A stretch of 64,000 bases of DNA from Pandoraea oxalativorans (GTDB taxonomy: Bacteria; Pseudomonadota; Gammaproteobacteria; Burkholderiales; Burkholderiaceae): assembly GCF_000972785.3 (NCBI RefSeq), contig NZ_CP011253.3, positions 1,364,001 to 1,428,000 of the forward strand. The letters run 5' to 3'. The notes under the pieces are model-generated. The model worked only from the letters and a program-made list of their open reading frames with translations. It did no database searches and was not told the origin of the DNA. A program made the translations under genes and the position numbers. Shown here in pieces: positions 27,180-39,085 of this stretch. Each line of letters opens with the position of its first letter. The first letter of the stretch is position 1.

Positions 27180-29294
27180 TTACTTCACACGCATGCCGGG
27201 CTTCGCGCCGTTGTGCGGCTCAAGAATGTAGATGCCCGGTTCGGCCTTCCCGTCGGCGGCCGAAGCGGCGAGCACCATGCCTTCCGACATGCCGAACTTC
27301 ATCTTGCGCGGCGCGAGGTTAGCGACCATCACCGTCAGCTTGCCCACGAGCACTTCGGGCTGCGGATACGCCGACTTGATGCCGGAGAAGACGTTGCGCG
27401 TTTGTGCTTCGCCGACGTCGAGCGTGAGCTGCAGCAACTTGTCCGACCCTTCGACGGCCTTGCAATCGACGATGCGTGCAATGCGCAGATCGATCCTGGC
27501 GAAGTCGTCGATGGTGATGATGCCGTCGTCGGCCTTCTCGGATGCTTTGTCAGCCTTCTCCGATTTTTCGGACTTCGCCGCCTTGTCCTTGCCCTTCGCT
27601 GCTGCGGCGTCGGCCGCCGGGGCCGTCGCTTGCAGCGAGTCGCGGTTGGCGGCGAGCAGCGCTTCGACCTGCTTGCCTTCGACGCGCGTCATCAGATGCT
27701 TGTACGCGTTGATGGCGGCATCGGCGGTGAGCGGACGGTTCACGTCCTGCCACGTCTGCGGGGCGATGTTCAGGAACTGCTCCACCGCTTGCGACGTCGT
27801 CGGCAGCACCGGCTTGAGGTACAGCGTCAGCAAGCGGAACGCTTCCAGACACACCGAGCAAGCCTCGTGCAGCGCCGCAGCCTGTGCCGGGTCCTTGGCC
27901 AGATCCCACGGCTTGACCGTATCGACGTAACCGTTGATCGCGTCGGCTTGTTCCATCACCAGACGCAGCGCCTTGCCGAACTCGCGACCTTCGTAATACG
28001 CGGCGATCTGCGGGGCAGCGGCGCGCACCTGTGCGAGCAACGGTGCGTTCATGGCGTCCGCCGAGACACGGCCGTCGAAACGCTTGATCAGGAAGCCCGC
28101 GGCACGGCTGGCGATGTTTACGTACTTGCCGACCAGATCGCTGTTCACCCGGGCGATGAAGTCATCGAGGTTCAGGTCGAGGTCCTCCATCGTATTGCCG
28201 AGCTTGGCGCCGATGTAATAACGCAGCCACTCCGGATTCAGCCCCGTATCGATGAAGCTTTGGGCCGTGATGAACGTGCCGCGCGACTTCGACATCTTCT
28301 GGCCGTCCACGGTCAGGAAGCCGTGGGCGTACACGTTGGTCGGCGTGCGATGGCCCGAGAATTCGAGCATCGCCGGCCAGAACAGCGTGTGGAAGTACAT
28401 GATGTCCTTGCCGATGAAGTGGTACTGCTCGGTCGTGGAACCGGGCTTGACCCATTCGTTGAAGTTCAGACCGCGCTTGGCGCACAGATTCTTGAAGCTG
28501 GCGTAGTAGCCGACCGGTGCGTCGAGCCACACATAAAAATACTTGCCCGGCGCGCCCGGAATCTCGAAGCCGAAGTAGGGCGCATCGCGCGAAATGTCCC
28601 AGTCTGCGAGCGTCGACTCGCCATCTTCACCGAGCCACTCCTTCATCTTGTTCGCCGCTTCGGGTTGGGCGAGGCCCGACACCCACTTGCGCAGGAACTG
28701 CTCGCAGCGCTTGTCCGAGAGCTTGAAGAAGTAGTGCGTCGACGTCTTGCGAATCGGCGTGGCGCCCGAGACGACCGAGTACGGATTGAGCAGGTCGGTC
28801 GGCGCGTAGGTCGAGCCGCAGACTTCGCACGAATCGCCGTACTGGTCCTTCGCGCCGCACTTCGGGCATTCGCCCTTGATGAAGCGGTCCGGCAGGAACA
28901 TCTCCTTGACCGGGTCGTACGCCTGTTCGATGTCGCGCGCCTCGATCAGGCCCTGTTCCTTCAGGGCGAGATAGACGTTTTCGGACAATTCGCGGTTCTC
29001 TTCCGAGTCCGTCGAATAGTAGTTGTCGAACGAGATGTTGAAGCTGTCGAAGTCGCGCTTGTGTTCCGTCCACACGCGCTCGATCAGTTGCTTGGGCGTG
29101 AGGCCTTCCTTTTCGGCGCGCAGCATGACCGGCGTGCCGTGCGTATCGTCCGCGCCAACGTAGTAGACCTCATGGCCCTGCATTCGCATGAACCGTACCC
29201 AGATGTCGGTCTGGATGTATTCCACCAGGTGACCGATGTGAATCTGGCCATTGGCGTACGGCAGTGCGGATGTGACAAGAATGCGGCGGGACAT
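27180..29294 (-). CDS. metG: Methionyl-tRNA synthetase
   Basis: Charges tRNA-Met. The 704-residue product has the HIGH motif as [11 protein letters not shown] at residues 12-22, a zinc knuckle with [17 protein letters not shown] near 145-161, and KMSKS near 333. It ends in a C-terminal EMAP/Trbp111-like tRNA-binding domain (from about 600, [15 protein letters not shown]) that mediates dimerisation. A Lys/Ala/Ser-rich linker joins the core to that domain. The ATG at 29294 has the family N-terminus. An ISL3 element has landed 125 nt upstream of the start, so the metG promoter is confined to that gap or lies in the IS. Confidence 0.97.
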
Positions 29295-29466
29295 GTGGTT
29301 TGACTATGTGGGTTGAGGGGTGCGGGAAAGGACGATTCTAGCAGGCGGGCGCCGCCCGCGCCCAAACGGGCGTCGGAGCAGGGGGGGCGTCGCCCAAAAG
29401 CGCGCGGCCAAAAAAAAAGGTTCATCGCGCAATAGCGTGGAGGGATTTGACAAGTTTTCGTACTCT

Positions 29467-29488
29467 TGATGGCAGGAATTTGCCATCA
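29467..29488 (+). promoter_or_regulatory. Hairpin before the transposase RBS, IS copy 1
   Basis: A perfect 8-bp inverted repeat, TGATGGCA (29467-29474), loop GGAATT, TGCCATCA (29481-29488), whose last base is the first of the AGGAG Shine-Dalgarno (29488-29492). In a transcript entering from outside the IS it would fold next to the ribosome-binding site and could reduce transposase translation. The same structure lies at 36319-36340 in copy 2. Confidence 0.5.
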
Positions 29489-29501
29489 GGAGTGCGTGGA
29501 G

Positions 29502-30722
29502 ATGCTGGATCGCAAGCTGCTGGAGTCGCTGGGAGGCTGGCAGGGCTATGCCGTCGAACGCGTGGAGTGGCCCGAGGGCACAGGGCGCACGCTGTCGATC
29601 TATTTGAAGCCAACCGCCAAGGTGATGCTGTGCGAGCAGTGCGGCGCACGATGTCGCCAGGTCCATGAGACCACGGTGCGCCGGGTGCGAGATCTGCCGT
29701 TATTTGAGTACCGGGTTGTTCTTCATGTTCCACGCCGGCGCTTGTTGTGTGAGCAATGCGGTGGCCCGCGCCTGGAGCGGCTTACTTGGCTGGGTCGCTA
29801 CCAGCGGGTGACGGATCGGCTTGCGGCGGCCTGCAGCCAATTGCTGCAATCGAGCAACGTGCAGGCGGTGGCGAGGTTCTTCGAGCTGGGTTGGCATACC
29901 GTCAAGACGCTGGACAAGGCCCGGCTCCGAGCGTCAGTGCGCGAACCGGATTGGTCCAGGATCGAGTATTTAGTGATGGACGAGTTCGCCCTGCATAAAG
30001 GGCATCGGTACGCGACGGTAGTCGTCGATCCGATCAGCAGGCAGGTGCTGTGGATCGGCCCAGGACGCTCACGCGAGACGGCTCGGGCGTTCTTCGAGCA
30101 ATTGCCGCGTGGGGTCGCCCAACGCATCAAGGCCGTAGCCATCGACATGACTACGGCCTACGAGTTAGAAATCCAGGCCCACTGCCCACGGGCGGAGATC
30201 GTCTATGACTTGTTCCATGTCGTGGCCAAGTACGGACGAGAGGTCATTGATCGGGTGCGCGTGGATCAGGCCAACCAACTGCGCCAGGACCGTCCCGCGC
30301 GCCGGGTCATCAAATCGAGCCGCTGGCTGTTATTGCGCAACCGCGACAAGCTAGACCGGCAGCAGGCCGTCCGGCTCGACGAATTGCTGCAAGCCAACCA
30401 GCCGCTGCTGACGGTCTATGTCCTGAGGGACGAACTCAAGCGGCTCTGGTTCTACCGAAGACCTGCCTGGGCAAAACAAGCCTGGCACCACTGGTGCGAG
30501 CAGGCCGAGCAAAGCGGAATAGCCCCCTTGAACACCTTCGCTCAGCGTCTGAAAGGCTATCTGCATGGCATCCTGGCCAGATGCCGACATCGTCTAAACA
30601 CCAGCATCGTTGAGGGCATTAACAACACTATCAAGGTCATTAAGCGGCGCGCCTACGGCTACCGAGACCAGGAATACTTCTTCCTCAAAATCCGCGCCGC
30701 CTTCCCCGGTAATGCTCAATGA
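29502..30722 (+). CDS. ISL3-family transposase, copy 1
   Basis: DDE transposase, 406 residues from the ATG at 29502, which has AGGAG 9 nt upstream; an in-frame GTG at 29496 and an ATG at 29469 are alternatives. The N-terminal ISL3 zinc finger has two CxxC pairs (MLCEQCG near residue 36 and LLCEQCG near 75), followed by a helix-turn-helix. The catalytic triad is visible as D160 (VMDEF), D215 (AIDMTT) and E371 (VEGINNTIK). The TGA lies within the right terminal repeat. Residue 158 is Val here and Ala in copy 2. Confidence 0.95.
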   Translation: MLDRKLLESLGGWQGYAVERVEWPEGTGRTLSIYLKPTAKVMLCEQCGARCRQVHETTVRRVRDLPLFEYRVVLHVPRRRLLCEQCGGPRLERLTWLGRYQRVTDRLAAACSQLLQSSNVQAVARFFELGWHTVKTLDKARLRASVREPDWSRIEYLVMDEFALHKGHRYATVVVDPISRQVLWIGPGRSRETARAFFEQLPRGVAQRIKAVAIDMTTAYELEIQAHCPRAEIVYDLFHVVAKYGREVIDRVRVDQANQLRQDRPARRVIKSSRWLLLRNRDKLDRQQAVRLDELLQANQPLLTVYVLRDELKRLWFYRRPAWAKQAWHHWCEQAEQSGIAPLNTFAQRLKGYLHGILARCRHRLNTSIVEGINNTIKVIKRRAYGYRDQEYFFLKIRAAFPGNAQ

Positions 30723-30725
30723 ACC

Positions 30726-30752
30726 AAAAAAAAGCCGGAACGAGGTTCCGGC
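30726..30752 (-). terminator. Intrinsic terminator interrupted by IS copy 1
   Basis: Read on the reverse strand the hairpin GCCGGAAC-CTC-GTTCCGGC (30734-30752) is followed by exactly eight T (30726-30733), and then by the right end of the IS. Because the T tract was duplicated, the terminator still looks functional. It would end the OmpA-like lipoprotein transcript, whose stop is 244 nt upstream. Confidence 0.85.
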
Positions 30753-30996
30753 ATAACTAGGCACACGTAACGTCAATAACAAAGAGGAGATGAAAGCGCC
30801 CACGGTAGGCACTTCCGAAGGGTCTGAGCGACGGGGCAGGGGATTAGTTCAACCGATGTGCGGATTTTCGATGCTGCGTTGCAGCATGCGGGCGGGCGGA
30901 GAGCCATTGGAGGGCAGAAGCGCGCATGCCCGGCGAACCGGGCATGCGTTTGCATGGACTGATCGGATGTCGGTCCGGTGATACTTCGCGACGCGC
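30753..30996 (-). other. Long 3' region of OmpA-like gene, no protein gene seen
   Basis: 244 nt between the OmpA-like stop and the terminator. It holds two perfect hairpins: CGCATGCCCGG with a 4-nt loop (30923-30948) and ATGCTGC-GTT-GCAGCAT (30871-30887). No convincing reading frame is present. It could be a structured 3'UTR or contain a 3'UTR-derived small RNA; neither is shown. Confidence 0.3.
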
Positions 30997-31659
30997 TTAG
31001 CGAGGCGCTTGCTGTTGTTGCTGAGGCGCTTGGAGGAGAATTTCCACGCGACGGTTCTGCGCGCGGCCTTCTGCCGTGGCGTCCGAGGCGACCGGCTGGC
31101 TGGAGCCGACGCCCACGCCCTGGAGACGGCGAGCATCGACGCCGCGCGAGGTCAGATACTGAATGACCGCATTGGCACGATTTTGCGAGAGCGGGATATT
31201 GATGCGGTCGCCACCGGTGCTGTCGGTATGGCCGATTACGCGGGCCGTGATGCCCGGATTCTGGTTAAGCGAGTTCGCCAGATCGGTGAGCACGGCGGCG
31301 AAGTTCGGCTTGATGGCGTACTGGTTCGTGTCGAACGTCACGTCGCTCGGCACGTTGACCTGGAGCTGGCCGTCCGGACGCTCGGAGATCTGGGTGCCGG
31401 TGCCGGCCGTGTGACCGCCCAGCGTGTTTTTGATGGACTGCCAGTTGTAGCCCGTGGCCCCGCCGGCGGCTGCGCCAACTGCGGCGCCGATCAGGGTGCC
31501 GGTGGTATTGCCTCCGATGAGGTTGCCCAGCCCCGCCCCGACTGCTGCGCCGACGCCGGTGCCGACTGCCGTGTTGGTGCCCTGCTGCGTCTGACATCCG
31601 GCCAGCATGGCGGCCGAGACCAGCACGAGCGCGGAAGCGCGCAGAGTGTTCTTATTCAT
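30997..31659 (-). CDS. OmpA-family lipoprotein with glycine-zipper region
   Basis: A 220-residue lipoprotein (YiaD type). The signal ends at lipobox LAGC with Cys22. A Gly/Ala-rich glycine-zipper stretch follows (about residues 30-72, GTGVGAAVGAGLGNLIGG), then a C-terminal OmpA peptidoglycan-binding domain (from about 100) with VIGHTDSTGGDRINIPLS and NRRVEI. The tail is Gln-rich. The role is to tie the outer membrane to peptidoglycan. AGGAG precedes the ATG. It is divergent from apbC, with a 273-nt gap for both promoters. Confidence 0.9.
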   Translation of the reverse strand: MNKNTLRASALVLVSAAMLAGCQTQQGTNTAVGTGVGAAVGAGLGNLIGGNTTGTLIGAAVGAAAGGATGYNWQSIKNTLGGHTAGTGTQISERPDGQLQVNVPSDVTFDTNQYAIKPNFAAVLTDLANSLNQNPGITARVIGHTDSTGGDRINIPLSQNRANAVIQYLTSRGVDARRLQGVGVGSSQPVASDATAEGRAQNRRVEILLQAPQQQQQAPR

Positions 31660-31932
31660 TTGAGGCTCCTTATCGATTAGCTAGCTGTGATGAAACACGC
31701 GTAAGCACTTCGTTGAAGCACGCGCGCGCCGCAGGGGTTTTGAGCCTGACGGCGCGACGTCTTTTACAATAGCGCTGAGCTTCAACCGCAGGCAAGGACA
31801 TCTTGCCGCGACGGCTGGTTCCCCATAACACGCGCGCCTCGAATGCTAGTCGAGAGCGTGCGCCACGGTTGTTACAAGTTGTTAGCGCTACGCCGGGTCG
31901 TCCCGGTGCGCCTCGACAGAGCGAGAGACCCT

Positions 31933-33015
31933 ATGGAAGTCGCCCAAATCAATGAAGTGCTGCGTGGTATCGTCGACCCGGATACAGGCTTGGACCTGAT
32001 CGCCGGCAAGTATGTCAAGCAAGTCGCGGCCGAGCACGGCCACGTCGGTATTCAGATCGAGTTCGGTTATCCCGCCAAAAGCCAGTTCGAAGCGATGCGC
32101 ACGCGTATTACCGAGGCCATCGGCAAGCTGCCCGGGGTCGAGCGCGTAGCCGTCGAAATCGGCCAGAAGATCGTAGCGCACACCGTACAACGCGGGGTGA
32201 AGCTCCTTCCCAATGTCAAGAACATCGTGGCTGTGGCCTCGGGCAAGGGCGGCGTGGGCAAGAGCACCACGGCCGTGAACCTCGCGCTCGCACTGGCGGC
32301 CGAAGGCGCGAATGTCGGCATTCTCGATGCTGACATCTACGGCCCGTCGCTGCCGACCCTGCTGGGTATTCACGGCAAGCCGGAATCGAAGGACGGCAAG
32401 ACCCTCGAACCGATGAACGGTCACGGCTTGCAGGCCAGTTCCATTGGCTTCCTGATCGAGCCGGACAATCCCATGGTCTGGCGCGGCCCGATGGTCACGC
32501 AGGCGCTCGAACAACTGCTTAACCAGACCAACTGGCACGACCTCGACTATCTGATCGTCGACATGCCGCCGGGTACGGGCGACATCCAGCTCACGCTCGC
32601 ACAGAAGGTGCCGGTCACGGGCGCGGTCATCGTGACGACGCCGCAGGATCTGGCGCTGCTCGACGCGCGCAAGGGTCTCAAGATGTTCGAGAAGGTCGGC
32701 GTGCCGATTCTGGGGCTGATCGAGAACATGAGTCTGCATATCTGCTCGAACTGCGGGCACGAGGAGCCGATCTTCGGCGTGGGTGGCGGCGAGCGCATGA
32801 GCCACGATTTCGATGTCGATCTGCTGGGCAAGCTGCCACTGGAGATGAGCATCCGCGTGCACGCAGACGCCGGTATGCCGAGCGTGGTGGGCGACCCGGA
32901 CGGCCGTGTGGCCGAGCTGTACAAGGCCATCGCCCGCAAGGTCGCGGTGAAGATTGCGGCGCGCCAGAAGGACATGACGAGCAAATTCCCGTCGATCGTC
33001 GTGCAGAACACGTAA
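31933..33015 (+). CDS. apbC: Iron-sulfur cluster carrier protein ApbC/Mrp
   Basis: P-loop ATPase that carries and delivers Fe-S clusters. The 360-residue product has an N-terminal FSCA/DUF59 domain (about residues 1-85), then GKGGVGKST near 103-111, YGPSLPTLLG, VDMPPGTGD, and the cluster-binding CxxC (C271 and C274 in ICSNCGHEE). The ATG at 31933 begins the DUF59 domain; the frame is open further upstream to 31843. It lies between two divergent or separate units and looks monocistronic. Confidence 0.94.
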   Translation: MEVAQINEVLRGIVDPDTGLDLIAGKYVKQVAAEHGHVGIQIEFGYPAKSQFEAMRTRITEAIGKLPGVERVAVEIGQKIVAHTVQRGVKLLPNVKNIVAVASGKGGVGKSTTAVNLALALAAEGANVGILDADIYGPSLPTLLGIHGKPESKDGKTLEPMNGHGLQASSIGFLIEPDNPMVWRGPMVTQALEQLLNQTNWHDLDYLIVDMPPGTGDIQLTLAQKVPVTGAVIVTTPQDLALLDARKGLKMFEKVGVPILGLIENMSLHICSNCGHEEPIFGVGGGERMSHDFDVDLLGKLPLEMSIRVHADAGMPSVVGDPDGRVAELYKAIARKVAVKIAARQKDMTSKFPSIVVQNT

Positions 33016-33180
33016 GGACGGCATGAAGACGGCCTGAAGGCTGGGTGGGCACGTCACGAAGCCCGTCGGGCCGGGCCGGAAGGCCCGGCGTGGGGCGCTG
33101 CGAGTGAAAACATCACCGCACCGCAACATTCGCGTAAAATATGCCCACTTTTTACGTACTCCCCCAATTCAGGCCCACAC

Positions 33181-33750
33181 ATGAGCATCAAGTCCGACAA
33201 ATGGATCCGTCGTATGGCCGAGGAGCACGGCATGATCGAGCCCTTCGAGCCGTCGCAGATCCGGTATTCCCAGGACGGGCAAAAGATCGTCAGCTACGGC
33301 ACGTCGAGCTACGGCTACGACATTCGCTGTGCGCCTGAATTCAAGGTCTTCACGAACATCAACTCGACGATCGTCGATCCGAAGAACTTCGACGAGAAAT
33401 CCTTCGTCGACGTCGAGAGCGATGTCTGCATCATTCCGCCGAACTCGTTCGCGCTCGCGCGCACCGTCGAATACTTCCGCATTCCGCGCAGCGTACTGAC
33501 CGTGTGCCTGGGCAAGTCGACGTATGCCCGCTGCGGCATCATCGTGAACGTAACGCCGTTCGAACCCGAATGGGAGGGCTACGTGACCCTGGAATTCTCG
33601 AACACGACGCCGCTGCCGGCCAAGATCTACGCCAACGAAGGCGTGGCTCAGGTGCTGTTCTTCGAATCCGACGAAGTCTGCGAGACGTCGTACAAGGATC
33701 GCGGCGGCAAGTATCAGGGACAGCGTGGTGTCACGCTGCCGAAAACCTAG
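33181..33750 (+). CDS. dcd: dCTP deaminase
   Basis: Deaminates dCTP to dUTP, which dUTPase converts to the dTTP precursor dUMP. The 189-residue trimeric enzyme shows [20 protein letters not shown] (near residues 110-130), with the catalytic Glu in GYVTLEFSN, and a C-terminal [10 protein letters not shown] loop that closes on the nucleotide. The ATG at 33181 starts with the family sequence MSIKSDKWI. It is followed 106 nt later by the decarboxylase gene in the same direction. Confidence 0.96.
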
Positions 33751-33856
33751 CCTGCCAGGCGCCATACTCGCCGCCGGTGAGCACCCCACACATCGCAATG
33801 CCCCAGAGCCACGGCCATGTCGGACCGTGGCTCGTTCTTTTGTCGAAGGAACGCCA

Positions 33857-36142
33857 ATGAAATTCCGTTTTCCGATCGTCATCATCGACGAGGACTTCCG
33901 CTCCGAAAACATTTCCGGATCCGGGATTCGTTCTTTGGCGGAGGCTATCGAAGCCGAGGGCATGGAGGTCAACGGCCTCACCAGCTACGGCGACCTGACC
34001 TCGTTTGCGCAGCAGGCGAGCCGCGCGTCGAGCTTCATCCTGTCCATCGACGACGACGAGTTCGGCACGTTTTCGAGCGAAGCAGGCGGTGAAGGCGAAG
34101 GCGAACTCGCGCTGGCCATCATCAACCTGCGTGCCTTCGTGCAGGAAGTGCGCCGCCGCAATCCGGATATTCCGATTTTCCTGTACGGGGAGACGCGCAC
34201 GTCGCGCCACATCCCGAACGACATCCTGCGCGAGCTGCACGGCTTCATTCATATGTTCGAAGACACGCCGGAGTTCGTGGCGCGTCACATCATTCGTGAA
34301 GCGAAGTCGTACCTCGACTCGCTGCCGCCGCCGTTCTTCCGCTCGCTCACGCACTACGCGGCAGACGGTTCGTACTCGTGGCACTGCCCGGGGCACTCGG
34401 GCGGCGTGGCGTTCCTGAAGAGCCCGGTCGGTCAGATGTTCCACCAGTTCTTCGGCGAGAACATGCTGCGTGCCGACGTCTGCAACGCCGTGGAAGAACT
34501 CGGCCAGTTGCTCGACCACAACGGTCCGGTGGGCGCGTCCGAGCGCAACGCTGCGCGCATCTTCAACGCGGATCACCTCTTCTTCGTGACGAACGGTACG
34601 TCGACGTCGAACAAGATCGTCTGGCACGCCACGGTGGCGCCGGGCGACATCGTCGTCGTCGACCGCAACTGCCACAAATCGATCCTGCACGCGATCACGA
34701 TGACGGGCGCGGTGCCAGTGTTCCTCACGCCCACGCGCAACCACCTCGGCATCATCGGCCCGATTCCGAAGTCGGAATTCGAGCCGGACGTGATTCGCGC
34801 CAAGATCGAAGCCAACCCGTTCGCGCGCGAAGTGCTCGAACGCGACCCGAACGCCAAGCCGCGCATTCTGACGATTACACAAAGCACGTACGACGGTGTG
34901 ATTTACAACGTCGAAATGATCAAGGACGTGCTGGGTAACAACATCGACACGCTGCACTTCGACGAAGCCTGGTTGCCGCACGCGGCGTTCCACGAGTTCT
35001 ACCGCGACATGCATGCCATCGGCGAAGGCCGTCCACGCTCGTCGGAAGCGACCATCTACGCTACGCACTCCACGCACAAGCTGCTCGCCGGGATTTCGCA
35101 GGCGTCGCAGATCGTGGTGCAGGATTCGGAAGCGCGCACGTTCGATACGTACCGTTTCAACGAAGCGTATCTGATGCACACGTCGACCTCGCCGCAGTAC
35201 GCGATCATCGCGTCGTGCGACGTGGCCGCCGCCATGATGGAGCCGCCGGGCGGCACGGCGCTGGTCGAAGAGTCGATTGTCGAAGCGCTCGATTTCCGCC
35301 GTGCCATGCGCAAGGTGGACCTGGAGTACGGCGATTCGTGGTGGTTCTCGGTCTGGGGTCCGGAGAATCTGGGCGACGAGGGCCCGATCCAGCGCGAGGA
35401 CTGGGTGCTGCGCTCGAACGACCGCTGGCACGGCTTCGGCGATCTGGCCGACGGTTTCAACATGCTCGACCCGATCAAGGCGACGATCATCACGCCGGGG
35501 CTGGACGTGGGCGGCGAGTTCGGCGAGAGCGGCATTCCGGCCGCCATCGTCACGAAGTATCTGGCCGAGCACGGCATCATCGTGGAGAAGACCGGCCTGT
35601 ACTCGTTCTTCATCATGTTCACGATCGGCATTACCAAGGGCCGTTGGAACTCGATGCTGACCGAGTTGCAACAGTTCAAGGACGACTACGATCACAACCG
35701 TCCGCTGTGGCGTGTACTGCCGGAGTTCGTCGCGCAGTTCCCGCGTTACGAGCGCATTGGTCTGCGCGACCTGTGCGATCAGATCCACAGCGTGTACAAG
35801 GCGAACGACGTGGCGCGCGTGACGACCGAGATGTACCTCTCGGACATGCAACCTGCGATGAAGCCGACGGACGCCTTCGCGAAGCTGGCGCACCGCCAGA
35901 TCGACCGGGTGCCTATCGACGATCTCGAAGGCCGTGTCACGAGCGTGCTGCTCACGCCGTATCCGCCGGGCATTCCGCTGTTGATCCCGGGCGAGCGCTT
36001 TAACGCCGCGATCATCGAATACCTGCGTTTTGCGCGCGACTTCAACGAGCGCTTCCCTGGCTTCCATACCGACATTCACGGTCTGGTGGTCGAGGAGGTC
36101 GACGGCCGTCCCGAGTACTTCGTGGACTGCGTGCGACAGTAA
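33857..36142 (+). CDS. Arginine/lysine/ornithine decarboxylase (PLP fold type I)
   Basis: A 761-residue basic amino-acid decarboxylase. The N-terminal wing domain is response-regulator-like (residues about 5-130), the central PLP domain has the Schiff-base lysine in THSTHKLLAGISQ (Lys408) and HFDEAWLPHAAFH, and a C-terminal domain contains TPYPPGIPLLIPGE. Which amine is made (putrescine, cadaverine or agmatine) cannot be decided by eye. The ATG at 33857 has GAAGGAA in front. The gene follows dcd, a common arrangement in Burkholderiales. Its terminator, 100 nt downstream, is the target of IS copy 2. Confidence 0.92.
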   Translation: MKFRFPIVIIDEDFRSENISGSGIRSLAEAIEAEGMEVNGLTSYGDLTSFAQQASRASSFILSIDDDEFGTFSSEAGGEGEGELALAIINLRAFVQEVRRRNPDIPIFLYGETRTSRHIPNDILRELHGFIHMFEDTPEFVARHIIREAKSYLDSLPPPFFRSLTHYAADGSYSWHCPGHSGGVAFLKSPVGQMFHQFFGENMLRADVCNAVEELGQLLDHNGPVGASERNAARIFNADHLFFVTNGTSTSNKIVWHATVAPGDIVVVDRNCHKSILHAITMTGAVPVFLTPTRNHLGIIGPIPKSEFEPDVIRAKIEANPFAREVLERDPNAKPRILTITQSTYDGVIYNVEMIKDVLGNNIDTLHFDEAWLPHAAFHEFYRDMHAIGEGRPRSSEATIYATHSTHKLLAGISQASQIVVQDSEARTFDTYRFNEAYLMHTSTSPQYAIIASCDVAAAMMEPPGGTALVEESIVEALDFRRAMRKVDLEYGDSWWFSVWGPENLGDEGPIQREDWVLRSNDRWHGFGDLADGFNMLDPIKATIITPGLDVGGEFGESGIPAAIVTKYLAEHGIIVEKTGLYSFFIMFTIGITKGRWNSMLTELQQFKDDYDHNRPLWRVLPEFVAQFPRYERIGLRDLCDQIHSVYKANDVARVTTEMYLSDMQPAMKPTDAFAKLAHRQIDRVPIDDLEGRVTSVLLTPYPPGIPLLIPGERFNAAIIEYLRFARDFNERFPGFHTDIHGLVVEEVDGRPEYFVDCVRQ

Positions 36143-36240
36143 GCGCATTCGCCATGCGGCGATGCGCTGACTCGCCGACTCGCTGCGAAGCGAGTCCGGC
36201 GCGGCCCGAAAATCCGGCCGACAAACATCGGAAAAGTGCG

Positions 36241-36270
36241 GCCCCATGTGAAAGCATGGGGCTTTTTTTT
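36241..36270 (+). terminator. Intrinsic terminator of the decarboxylase gene, interrupted by IS copy 2
   Basis: GCCCCATG (36241-36248) and CATGGGGC (36255-36262) form a perfect 8-bp stem with loop TGAAAG, followed by exactly eight T (36263-36270). The IS begins at the next base. A second T8 lies at the far side of the IS (37578-37585). Confidence 0.9.
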
Positions 36271-36318
36271 GGTTCATCGCGCAATAGCGTGGAGGGATTT
36301 GACAAGTTTTCGTACTCT

Positions 36319-36340
36319 TGATGGCAGGAATTTGCCATCA
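36319..36340 (+). promoter_or_regulatory. Hairpin before the transposase RBS, IS copy 2
   Basis: The same perfect 8-bp hairpin as in copy 1 (TGATGGCA/TGCCATCA), next to the AGGAG at 36340-36344. Read-through from the decarboxylase transcript would enter this end of the element first, so the structure could limit transposase translation. Confidence 0.5.
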
Positions 36341-36353
36341 GGAGTGCGTGGAG

Positions 36354-37574
36354 ATGCTGGATCGCAAGCTGCTGGAGTCGCTGGGAGGCTGGCAGGGCTA
36401 TGCCGTCGAACGCGTGGAGTGGCCCGAGGGCACAGGGCGCACGCTGTCGATCTATTTGAAGCCAACCGCCAAGGTGATGCTGTGCGAGCAGTGCGGCGCA
36501 CGATGTCGCCAGGTCCATGAGACCACGGTGCGCCGGGTGCGAGATCTGCCGTTATTTGAGTACCGGGTTGTTCTTCATGTTCCACGCCGGCGCTTGTTGT
36601 GTGAGCAATGCGGTGGCCCGCGCCTGGAGCGGCTTACTTGGCTGGGTCGCTACCAGCGGGTGACGGATCGGCTTGCGGCGGCCTGCAGCCAATTGCTGCA
36701 ATCGAGCAACGTGCAGGCGGTGGCGAGGTTCTTCGAGCTGGGTTGGCATACCGTCAAGACGCTGGACAAGGCCCGGCTCCGAGCGTCAGTGCGCGAACCG
36801 GATTGGTCCAGGATCGAGTATTTAGCGATGGACGAGTTCGCCCTGCATAAAGGGCATCGGTACGCGACGGTAGTCGTCGATCCGATCAGCAGGCAGGTGC
36901 TGTGGATCGGCCCAGGACGCTCACGCGAGACGGCTCGGGCGTTCTTCGAGCAATTGCCGCGTGGGGTCGCCCAACGCATCAAGGCCGTAGCCATCGACAT
37001 GACTACGGCCTACGAGTTAGAAATCCAGGCCCACTGCCCACGGGCGGAGATCGTCTATGACTTGTTCCATGTCGTGGCCAAGTACGGACGAGAGGTCATT
37101 GATCGGGTGCGCGTGGATCAGGCCAACCAACTGCGCCAGGACCGTCCCGCGCGCCGGGTCATCAAATCGAGCCGCTGGCTGTTATTGCGCAACCGCGACA
37201 AGCTAGACCGGCAGCAGGCCGTCCGGCTCGACGAATTGCTGCAAGCCAACCAGCCGCTGCTGACGGTCTATGTCCTGAGGGACGAACTCAAGCGGCTCTG
37301 GTTCTACCGAAGACCTGCCTGGGCAAAACAAGCCTGGCACCACTGGTGCGAGCAGGCCGAGCAAAGCGGAATAGCCCCCTTGAACACCTTCGCTCAGCGT
37401 CTGAAAGGCTATCTGCATGGCATCCTGGCCAGATGCCGACATCGTCTAAACACCAGCATCGTTGAGGGCATTAACAACACTATCAAGGTCATTAAGCGGC
37501 GCGCCTACGGCTACCGAGACCAGGAATACTTCTTCCTCAAAATCCGCGCCGCCTTCCCCGGTAATGCTCAATGA
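36354..37574 (+). CDS. ISL3-family transposase, copy 2
   Basis: A 406-residue DDE transposase identical to copy 1 except Ala158 for Val158, two residues before the first catalytic Asp (D160). The zinc-finger cysteines and D160/D215/E371 are all present, so it should be active. It is preceded by the same AGGAG and hairpin. It reads in the same direction as the decarboxylase gene upstream and gltS downstream. Confidence 0.95.
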   Translation: MLDRKLLESLGGWQGYAVERVEWPEGTGRTLSIYLKPTAKVMLCEQCGARCRQVHETTVRRVRDLPLFEYRVVLHVPRRRLLCEQCGGPRLERLTWLGRYQRVTDRLAAACSQLLQSSNVQAVARFFELGWHTVKTLDKARLRASVREPDWSRIEYLAMDEFALHKGHRYATVVVDPISRQVLWIGPGRSRETARAFFEQLPRGVAQRIKAVAIDMTTAYELEIQAHCPRAEIVYDLFHVVAKYGREVIDRVRVDQANQLRQDRPARRVIKSSRWLLLRNRDKLDRQQAVRLDELLQANQPLLTVYVLRDELKRLWFYRRPAWAKQAWHHWCEQAEQSGIAPLNTFAQRLKGYLHGILARCRHRLNTSIVEGINNTIKVIKRRAYGYRDQEYFFLKIRAAFPGNAQ

Positions 37575-37577
37575 ACC

Positions 37578-37864
37578 TTTTTTTTCGGCCAAGGCGCGTA
37601 TGTGGCGGTGGTGCCTTCGCATACGCCGATTAGCGGTGTGCAACTTGCGTAATTCGTTCGTAGGCGATGCCGTCGCAACGTCAATCGCCGCAAATTTCCG
37701 TAAACATCTGTGAATTCTCGCGAAAACCTCGCAAACGCCCGTGGCATGGCCTAAAACACCAATTTGGTGGCGTTACTCGAACACGTCATTTTTGGGATTT
37801 TTCACATCATTTTCTTGGGACGTCATTGCTAAACTCGTCGCATTTTTCGAGTGGGGGGGAGGTC
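37578..37864 (+). other. Intergenic region upstream of gltS
   Basis: 287 nt starting with the T8 duplication. It is more AT-rich than its surroundings. It must hold the gltS promoter, but no convincing -35/-10 pair with 17-nt spacing was found by eye. A long purine Shine-Dalgarno (GGGGGGGAGG) ends it. No gene seen. Confidence 0.4.
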
Positions 37865-39085
37865 ATGGACGTCACGAGGGAACTGGTGTTCAGCACCTAC
37901 GGCACACTCGTCTGTGCCACGTTGGTGTTGCTGCTGGGGCGCAAGCTTGTCGAATGGATCGCGCCGCTGCGCACGTACAGCATCCCTGAGCCGGTCGCGG
38001 CTGGCCTGCTGGTGGCGCTCGGCACGCTGGCGATGCGTCAGTTCGGACATTTCGAACTGCGGTTCGACACCTCCCTGCAAGGCCCGCTGATGCTGGCGTT
38101 TTTCGCGACCATCGGCCTGTCGGCGAATCTCGCGAGTTTGCGTGCGGGCGGCAAGCGGCTGGTGCTTTTTGTGGGTGTCGTGGCGGGCATGCTGATCATG
38201 CAGAACGTCATCGGTGTCGGGCTGGCTGTCTCGATGGGGCTGGCGCCGGGCATCGGTTTGCTGGGCGGCTCCATCACGCTCGCAGGCGGACATGGCACGG
38301 GCGCAGCCTGGGGCGAGACGCTCACGACGCGCTACGGCGTCCAGTCGGCACTCGAAATTGCGATGGCGTGTGCCACGTTCGGACTGGTGATGGGCGGTTT
38401 GCTGGGCGGGCCGGTCGCGCGATATCTGGTCGGACGCCGACTTGGCGGCAAAGTCCCGGGCCGTGAGGCGACAAAGGATGCTGCACCGGAAGGCTTCGAG
38501 CAACCGCATACGGTGCGCCTGATCACGGCGCAGGCGTTGATCGAGACGGTGGCGATGATCGCCATCTGTCTGCTCGGCGGCGAGTTGATCGCAGCAGGGC
38601 TTTCGGATACGCCGTTCGAATTGCCGACGTTCGTCTGCGTTCTCTTTACGGGCGTGCTTGTGCGCAATCTGCTGTCGCTCGTCCGCTATGAGGTCTTCGA
38701 CCGTTCGCTGTCTGTGCTGGGGAACGTGAGTCTGTCGTTGTTTCTCGCGATGGCGCTCATGGCCTTGCGACTGTGGGATCTGTCGACGCTGGCCGTGCCG
38801 ATGATCGTGATTCTCGTGACGCAGGCGGTGGCGATGGCGGCGTATGCCATCTTCGTCACGTTCCGCGTGATGGGCGGCAACTACGATGCGGCCGTGCTCG
38901 CCGCAGGTCACTGCGGCTTTGGGCTGGGGGCGACGCCGACCGCGATTGCCAACATGCAGGCAGTGACGGAGCGCTTCGGTCCGTCGCACCTCGCCTTCCT
39001 GATCGTGCCAATGGTGGGAGCGTTCTTTATCGACATCCTGAACGCGCTCGTCATCAAGGGCTTCCTGTCGTTGCCGTTGTTCTGA
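37865..39085 (+). CDS. gltS: Sodium/glutamate symporter
   Basis: Na+-dependent glutamate importer of the ESS family, 406 residues, with about ten to twelve membrane segments in two inverted halves. Family motifs are visible: PEPVAAGLLVALG near residue 42, FFATIGLSANL near 80, GGSITLAGGHGTGAAWG near 139, and in the second half GHCGFGLGATPTAIANM near 352. The ATG at 37865 lies 6 nt after a strong GGGGAGG. It ends at a terminator shared with argH. Confidence 0.94.
   Translation: MDVTRELVFSTYGTLVCATLVLLLGRKLVEWIAPLRTYSIPEPVAAGLLVALGTLAMRQFGHFELRFDTSLQGPLMLAFFATIGLSANLASLRAGGKRLVLFVGVVAGMLIMQNVIGVGLAVSMGLAPGIGLLGGSITLAGGHGTGAAWGETLTTRYGVQSALEIAMACATFGLVMGGLLGGPVARYLVGRRLGGKVPGREATKDAAPEGFEQPHTVRLITAQALIETVAMIAICLLGGELIAAGLSDTPFELPTFVCVLFTGVLVRNLLSLVRYEVFDRSLSVLGNVSLSLFLAMALMALRLWDLSTLAVPMIVILVTQAVAMAAYAIFVTFRVMGGNYDAAVLAAGHCGFGLGATPTAIANMQAVTERFGPSHLAFLIVPMVGAFFIDILNALVIKGFLSLPLF

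Follow-up and report, generated by a model that had tools for sequence, protein, structure and literature searches.

The stretch of Pandoraea oxalativorans DNA analyzed here (64,000 nt of contig NZ_CP011253.3; hereafter, the window) contains two copies of a 1307-bp insertion sequence (IS) of the ISL3 family, each of which stands between two 8-nt A/T homopolymers and adjoins a terminator-like hairpin (Table 1). A first-pass annotation of the window had described this arrangement and proposed that the element targets the T tracts of intrinsic terminators, perhaps by recognizing poly-A/T DNA, the hairpin, or paused transcription complexes. The positions and the A8/A8 and T8/T8 flanks that it gave are correct; the A run left of copy 1 extends one base beyond the duplication, to A9. 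Among the 10 terminator-like sites listed between 29000 and 38200 (6.8 expected from shuffles), only the two hairpins that adjoin the IS copies have a tail of at least seven T, and an Rfam scan of the same interval returned no match.

The copy 2 transposase scores 364 bits against NF033550 (cut-off 180) and 234.5 bits against PF01610, and PF13542 and PF14690 are also above cut-off, which completes the ISL3 set of zinc ribbon, helix-turn-helix (HTH), and DDE domains. These domains, the length of ≈1.3 kb, the GGTTC...GAACC ends, and the 8-bp A/T-rich duplication all resemble the ISL3 family, specifically its ISRta1-like branch; a relative in Cupriavidus taiwanensis carries the annotation "ISRta1 family." Copies 1 and 2 differ at a single base. 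Position 29974 is T in copy 1 and C in the other 37 uninterrupted copies compared, which gives copy 1 a private Val for Ala at the residue immediately preceding the conserved Met-Asp-Glu of the transposase.

Table 1. The two ISL3-family copies, their target duplications and terminators, and the neighboring genes, in window positions
Feature	Position	Strand	Remarks
ISL3-family element copy 1, 1307 bp	29419..30725	+	terminal inverted repeats GGTTCAT.../...ATGAACC
ISL3 transposase copy 1, 406 aa from ATG	29502..30722	+	families scanned on copy 2
Target duplication A8, left of copy 1	29411..29418	.	within A9 run 29410-29418
Target duplication A8, right of copy 1	30726..30733	.	
Intrinsic terminator stem-loop GCCGGAACGAGGTTCCGGC	30734..30752	-	8-bp stem, then T8 on the - strand; 3' of OmpA-family gene
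ISL3-family element copy 2, 1307 bp	36271..37577	+	
ISL3 transposase copy 2, 406 aa	36354..37574	+	Zn ribbon 41-86, HTH 92-139, DDE domain 157-397
Target duplication T8, left of copy 2	36263..36270	.	
Target duplication T8, right of copy 2	37578..37585	.	
Intrinsic terminator stem-loop GCCCCATGTGAAAGCATGGGGC	36241..36262	+	9-bp stem, then T8; 3' of Orn/Lys/Arg decarboxylase gene
Methionyl-tRNA synthetase gene	27180-29294	-	
OmpA-family gene	30997-31659	-	
NUBPL/Mrp-type ATPase gene	31843-33015	+	
Orn/Lys/Arg decarboxylase gene	33725-36142	+	
Na/glutamate symporter gene	37667-39085	+	

The element is present in 43 near-identical copies

Exact ends of the element occur 44 times on the left and 43 times on the right in the 6.5-Mb genome (5 contigs; GC content 62.9% in 1.19 Mb sampled), giving 43 copies with both ends, of which 40 are 1307 bp long and 3 are split by another IS. 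The imperfect terminal inverted repeats GGTTCAT... and ...ATGAACC are present in all 43. Each of the 38 uninterrupted copies compared is at most 4 bases from copy 1, and because these copies are near-identical, the amplification of the element is probably recent.

The 43 copies correspond to 40 distinct sites (hereafter, own sites), four copies having one flank in common within another repeated sequence. These four (L059, L063, L067, and L071) represent one target; the last three were left out of the own-site count, as was a lone left end (L072) on C4. The same target with a single undivided TTTTTTTA and no IS is found in the same genome at L203 and L072. An exact 8-bp target duplication is present at 32/40 own sites. 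Read in the T orientation, the duplicated octamer is T8 at 7/40 and contains six or more consecutive T at 23/40, so that the window copies, with their full 8-nt homopolymers, are cleaner than the average copy. A 1431-bp IS256-family element splits three copies, L056 (C1:3410859), L059 (C1:3659141), and L070 (C2:508395); at L056 the ISL3 copy is complete around the nested element, with one mismatch.

By a simple codon-usage test, no coding frame passes through the boundary at 37/40 own sites. The first-pass statement that neither neighboring gene is damaged therefore holds for most copies, with the exception of the 3/40 sites where a frame is crossed. At the 35 main-contig sites, neither the T strand nor the IS has a preferred direction with respect to the replication fork (for the IS, 19 copies run with the fork and 16 against it), and distance from the origin is likewise unbiased (Kolmogorov-Smirnov P=0.64). 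Own and foreign terminator sites taken together show no preferred orientation of the element either (29 A-type, 22 T-type).

Terminator stems abut the sites on one side

The association with terminators was measured with a strict stem score that accepts only stems ending 0–1 nt from the tract with a loop of 3–9, applied identically to sites and controls and to both sides of each site; controls for the own sites were 3000 random positions. A stem scoring at least 15 lies on the T-strand 5' side at 23/40 own sites and on the other side at 1/40, against 9.6% of random positions, which confirms across 40 distinct sites the earlier suspicion that the window's two of two exceeded chance. At a threshold of 18 the numbers are 18/40 and 3.6%, and all 18 of these stems finish directly at the duplication, none 1 nt away. 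The first-pass annotation had named, as a finding that would tell against it, most other copies lying in sites without homopolymers or away from hairpins; the majority falls narrowly the other way, with stems of at least 15 at 21 of the 38 other own sites but of at least 18 at only 16/38.

The score is below 12 at 15/40 own sites. It is 12 for L061, whose long, interrupted hairpin has a folding energy of −27 kcal/mol; L033-, with a duplication that starts one base earlier, carries a 6-bp stem when read in the register of its T run. Lenient RNA folding of the flanks was dropped as a test in favor of the strict score, because GC-rich DNA folds almost anywhere.

As a control we used the IS256-family element of the same genome (NF033543, PF00872; 1431 bp, 30 left ends), for which 18 distinct sites had both flanks in hand; at the other 12 left ends, the adjoining 12 bases of left flank contain no A/T run of that length (6). 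With stem orientation set by the A/T bias of this element, an oriented stem of at least 15 is found at 1/18 sites and of at least 18 at 0/18 (either side: 3/18), and an A/T run of at least 6 at 0/18. The difference from the ISL3 element is significant at both thresholds (Fisher P=1.5e-4 and 4e-4). Because the IS256-family element shows no such pattern, the ISL3 distribution does not appear to be a safe-site effect common to the ISs of this genome, to the extent that a single control element is informative.

The habit is common to close relatives

Relatives were taken from other genomes (Achromobacter, Burkholderia, Paraburkholderia, Cupriavidus, Hydrogenophaga, Ralstonia, Bordetella, Pandoraea G031, and others) with transposases 75–98% identical, giving 46 counted foreign sites. 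A first round examined 36 of 78 loci, the other 42 being mostly partial or contig-end matches. A second round of 60 loci kept 54 sites and dropped 6 (duplication below 6/8, or no ends); at two of the dropped loci, L152 and L278, one end adjoins a terminator. The count then excluded 7 sites with less than 74% identity and L272, which repeats another site. Stems of at least 15 lie on the expected side at 28/46 foreign sites and on the wrong side at 4/46, and stems of at least 18 on the expected side at 23/46. The octamer is T8 at 10/46, and the 8-bp duplication is exact at 42/46, sites having been kept only if at least 6/8 matched. At L107 in G031, the duplication TTTTTTGG lies within the loop of the inverted repeat AATGCCGCC/GGCGGCATT and not 3' of the repeat.

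A protein search of 399 genomes of the order, with at most four candidates scored per genome, reached E≤1e-100 in one genome besides the window's own. Two other Pandoraea elements are informative in a different way. The G031 element (transposase 79% identical, nucleotide identity 74%) at L109 occupies a terminator orthologous to that of own copy L040, with insertion point and orientation identical to the base, and the same holds for P. horticolens L152 (transposase 81% identical) and own L033-. The comparison was limited to these two pairs; in all, insertion sites were examined for 8 copies from other Pandoraea (7 in G031, 1 in P. horticolens). Because the own copies are near-identical whereas the elements of the other Pandoraea have diverged, both matches are most simply read as independent insertions; replacement of an older copy through recombination is a possible alternative. 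The L152 element itself is shortened: its two ends border different terminator tracts and lack a matching duplication, as would be expected had recombination joined two insertions.

Farther out in the family the picture is mixed. Sites at terminators were found at 56–58% identity in Cupriavidus (L302, L303) and Acinetobacter (L274, right end only) and at 52% in Xanthomonas sacchari (L276). No strong abutting stem was seen at the sites in Cupriavidus (L273, L286; 57%), P. aeruginosa (L275, L281, L294; 53%), Sphingobium (L304; 52%), or Desulfaltia (L166; 41%), and the ISKox3 and ISCfr12 copies examined (26–28% identity) have A/T-rich duplications without a strong abutting stem. P. aeruginosa L292 has no duplication; 5 of the 10 wider ISL3 loci gave no duplication pair and hence are uninformative. 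On these small numbers, the terminator habit looks like a property of one ISL3 branch. The X. sacchari site, on a plasmid (L276, L282, L288), holds two tandem ISL3 copies with only A8 between them beside a terminator hairpin; this could be a dimer of the element or the result of one copy having inserted into the T8 next to another.

Junction sequence probably accounts for most of the target choice

A T tract of at least seven preceded by G or C is present at 16/40 own sites, whereas a 1.93-Mb background contains 88 such positions on both strands, 38 of them coding. Among the 50 non-coding ones, 54% carry a stem of at least 15, so that the tract itself explains some of the association with hairpins. 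Junctions of the form SSSC-T7+ (S, G or C; T7+, at least seven T) number 70 genome-wide, 11 of which are at IS copies, and for SSSC-T8 there are 12 in 6.5 Mb, 5 of which are at IS copies. Occupancy is higher for T8+ (5/12) than for T7 (6/58; Fisher P=0.017). A sixth SSSC-T8 junction adjoins a decayed ISL3 end, which begins immediately behind the T8 and shows 73% identity over its last 118 bp. Two loci carry decayed or partial elements from other ISL3 members: C2:267700 (L090, L358), where the element begins directly behind the T8 of a terminator, and C2:181302 (L233, L356).

The presence of a hairpin does not distinguish occupied from empty junctions of this type. With all 59 empty junctions scored, stems of at least 15 are found at 6/10 occupied and 41/59 empty SSSC-T7+ junctions (P=0.7), and stems of at least 18 at 6/10 and 30/59 (P=0.7); the occupied fraction at 15 becomes 7/11 if L033- is counted and 8/11 if L061 and L033- both are. 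Conversely, T-sites without a hairpin keep the sequence border. Their upstream tetramer averages 3.56/4 G/C (n=16, some of the 16 tracts being imperfect) versus 1.91 in 227 controls, which were non-coding, non-hairpin T6/T7+ tracts; a final C precedes the tract at 13/16 versus 41/227, and fewer than three of the upstream four bases are G/C at 2/16 versus 163/227. These two results do not uphold the first-pass suggestion of hairpin recognition. Its broader proposal of terminator T-tract targeting stands as a description, given the stems at 23/40 own and 28/46 foreign sites, but the cue is mainly the junction sequence: the selected feature appears to be GC-rich DNA ending in C, followed by T7-8.

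Control sets matched in increasing detail bear on the same question, the foreign sites also being judged against own-genome controls and 6/86 sites falling into no class. Matched on T class and non-coding status, stems are in excess at own sites (22/37 versus 12.3 expected; P=3e-4) and at foreign sites (28/43 versus 13.7; P=2e-6). At the finest matching, the T7/T8 tracts show no hairpin excess (own, 9/12 versus 11.1; foreign, 8/10 versus 9.4). An earlier match on the exact 8-mer plus one upstream base (32/40 sites testable) had given 18 stems versus 6.7 expected; this apparently strong hairpin effect was set aside, as much of it is lost once upstream GC and non-coding status are matched and none is seen at SSSC-T7+.

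Several observations weigh against this reading. A stem of at least 15 is missing at 17/40 own sites, the T tract is poor at some (L056, L066, L039), and the occupied SSSC-T7+ set is small (10–11). When 4-base upstream GC and the last base are matched as well, stems are still in excess overall (50/80 versus 36.6; P=4e-4) and at own sites alone (22/37 versus 16.5; P=0.024). At imperfect tracts the excess persists even at the finest matching (17/22 versus 10.3 expected), both for own (7/8 versus 3.8; P=0.02) and for foreign sites (10/14 versus 6.5; P=0.05). Because this hairpin excess survives matching, sequence alone may not be everything.

One reading of that excess is that the terminator is recognized as a structure or a process, through an extruded DNA hairpin or an RNA polymerase paused on the T tract. 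The surplus at imperfect tracts and, under coarser matching, overall would fit such a cue, as would the 18 strong own stems that all end directly at the duplication. We consider it unlikely, given that hairpins are equally frequent at occupied and empty SSSC-T7+ junctions, that 15/40 own sites score below 12, that G031 L107 sits in the loop of an inverted repeat instead of after it, and that the T strand is unbiased relative to the replication fork. Recognition of a hairpin or of paused polymerase is thus not established. A compromise seems slightly less doubtful, although still tentative: two inputs, in which the sequence of the T tract and its GC border acts together with the terminator, sensed as an extruded hairpin or as paused polymerase, the latter input rescuing imperfect T tracts. 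If true, this would make the element a DDE transposon coupled to transcription termination; we know of no other.

Selection after insertion offers a different account, in which the element enters A/T tracts broadly and mainly the harmless intergenic or terminator-sparing insertions survive. Only 3/40 own sites cross a coding frame, although 38/88 background tracts are coding, and the hairpin association is partly lost when controls are limited to non-coding DNA. The recency of the burst (38 copies within 4 bases) makes this account improbable, however, as do the lack of any such pattern for the IS256-family element, the rarity of insertions at T-sites without a GC-rich border, and the exact repeat insertions at two orthologous terminators.

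Least credible is a generic preference for A/T-richness with only coincidental terminators. The target is polar, with C at −1 at 38/51 hairpin and 20/32 non-hairpin sites and a mixed far side (T, G, A), and 5 of the mere 12 SSSC-T8 junctions in 6.5 Mb are occupied; both features are very hard to square with such a preference. What speaks for it is the A/T-rich duplications without abutting hairpin of the examined ISKox3 and ISCfr12 copies and the existence of mixed A/T targets and of a second, minority target, AAAAATTT-like, which mostly lacks a strong stem. Such sites are own L032, L048, and L058 and foreign L117, L121, L128, L137, and L147 (L032 and L147 score 16).

A model for delivery to terminators

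Taken together, we propose, with a probability of roughly three-quarters, that the ISL3 transposition machinery picks A/T octamers with a GC-rich edge on the T-strand 5' side and so reaches terminators. The best target would be SSSC|TTTTTTTT, and the chosen 8-bp A/T tract would then be duplicated. In a 63% GC genome, such junctions mostly coincide with the 3' half of intrinsic terminators, made up of a stem arm and its T tract, so that the element would be delivered to terminators and would mostly spare genes. The transposase itself may read the junction as DNA, probably through the groove shape of the T tract together with the GC edge, and the staggered 8-bp cut would begin at that edge. The hairpin and T tract would stay intact after insertion, facing the IS end. 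Several parts of the model are read directly from the genome sequences: where the element lies, which 8 bp are duplicated, the polarity of the border, how often the best sites are occupied, the two orthologous recurrences, and the same habit in relatives.

Since the hairpin and T tract point into the IS, neighboring transcripts should end at the IS border. Shielding of the transposase gene is nonetheless unlikely to be a selected trait, because orientation relative to the hairpin is unbiased.

Relation to known systems and significance

Dispersed, mostly intergenic, hairpin-forming sequences are exploited by other mobile elements as well. IS110-group elements target repetitive extragenic palindromic (REP) sequences, and IS1272 targets inverted repeats. 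These elements differ from the Pandoraea element in their transposases and targets; the cue here is a T-tract border.

Group IIC introns insert just 3' of the stem-loops of rho-independent terminators (PMC7923331, consulted in part). They are retroelements that use RNA pairing and an upstream stem-loop, whereas the Pandoraea element is a DDE DNA transposon. A group IIC-like dependence on a stem-loop 5' of the site is not what we find, by the SSSC-T7+ comparison and the 15/40 scores below 12: the stem-loop does not raise ISL3 occupancy at SSSC-T7+, and the same place is reached mainly via the junction sequence.

Within the ISL3 family, the sections seen of one report describe AT-rich 8-bp duplications for an ISL3-like transposon (PMC5559704). 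The Pandoraea element differs in having a definable polar target, GC-rich DNA followed by T7-8, and most of its copies at intrinsic terminators. A related case is a single ISL3-associated insertion in the rho-independent terminator of an rRNA operon in Enterococcus faecium, with an 8-bp duplication, ACTAGAAA; the inserted DNA has an ISL3-family element at one end, and the terminator is disrupted about halfway (PMC11702846, excerpts). That case is one rearrangement with a disrupted terminator, presented in those excerpts without a targeting rule, whereas the Pandoraea insertions keep the terminator. In the parts consulted of a broader survey, ISL3 is over-represented between co-oriented genes, and the passages on terminators concern those inside ISs, not ones into which an IS has inserted (PMC9208149). 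Our search of the open literature, by titles and abstract openings and with most subscription papers and ISfinder outside it, returned no report of ISL3 targeting terminators.

In the literature consulted, as far as the portions seen go, descriptions of ISL3 targets do not go beyond AT-rich sites of 8 bp; the target proposed here is short, polar, and predictable. In effect, it amounts to a safe-harbor strategy, with 43 copies in the genome and 3/40 sites crossing a coding frame. It also provides a defined, testable target for ISL3 transposases, one that lets the next landing sites be predicted.

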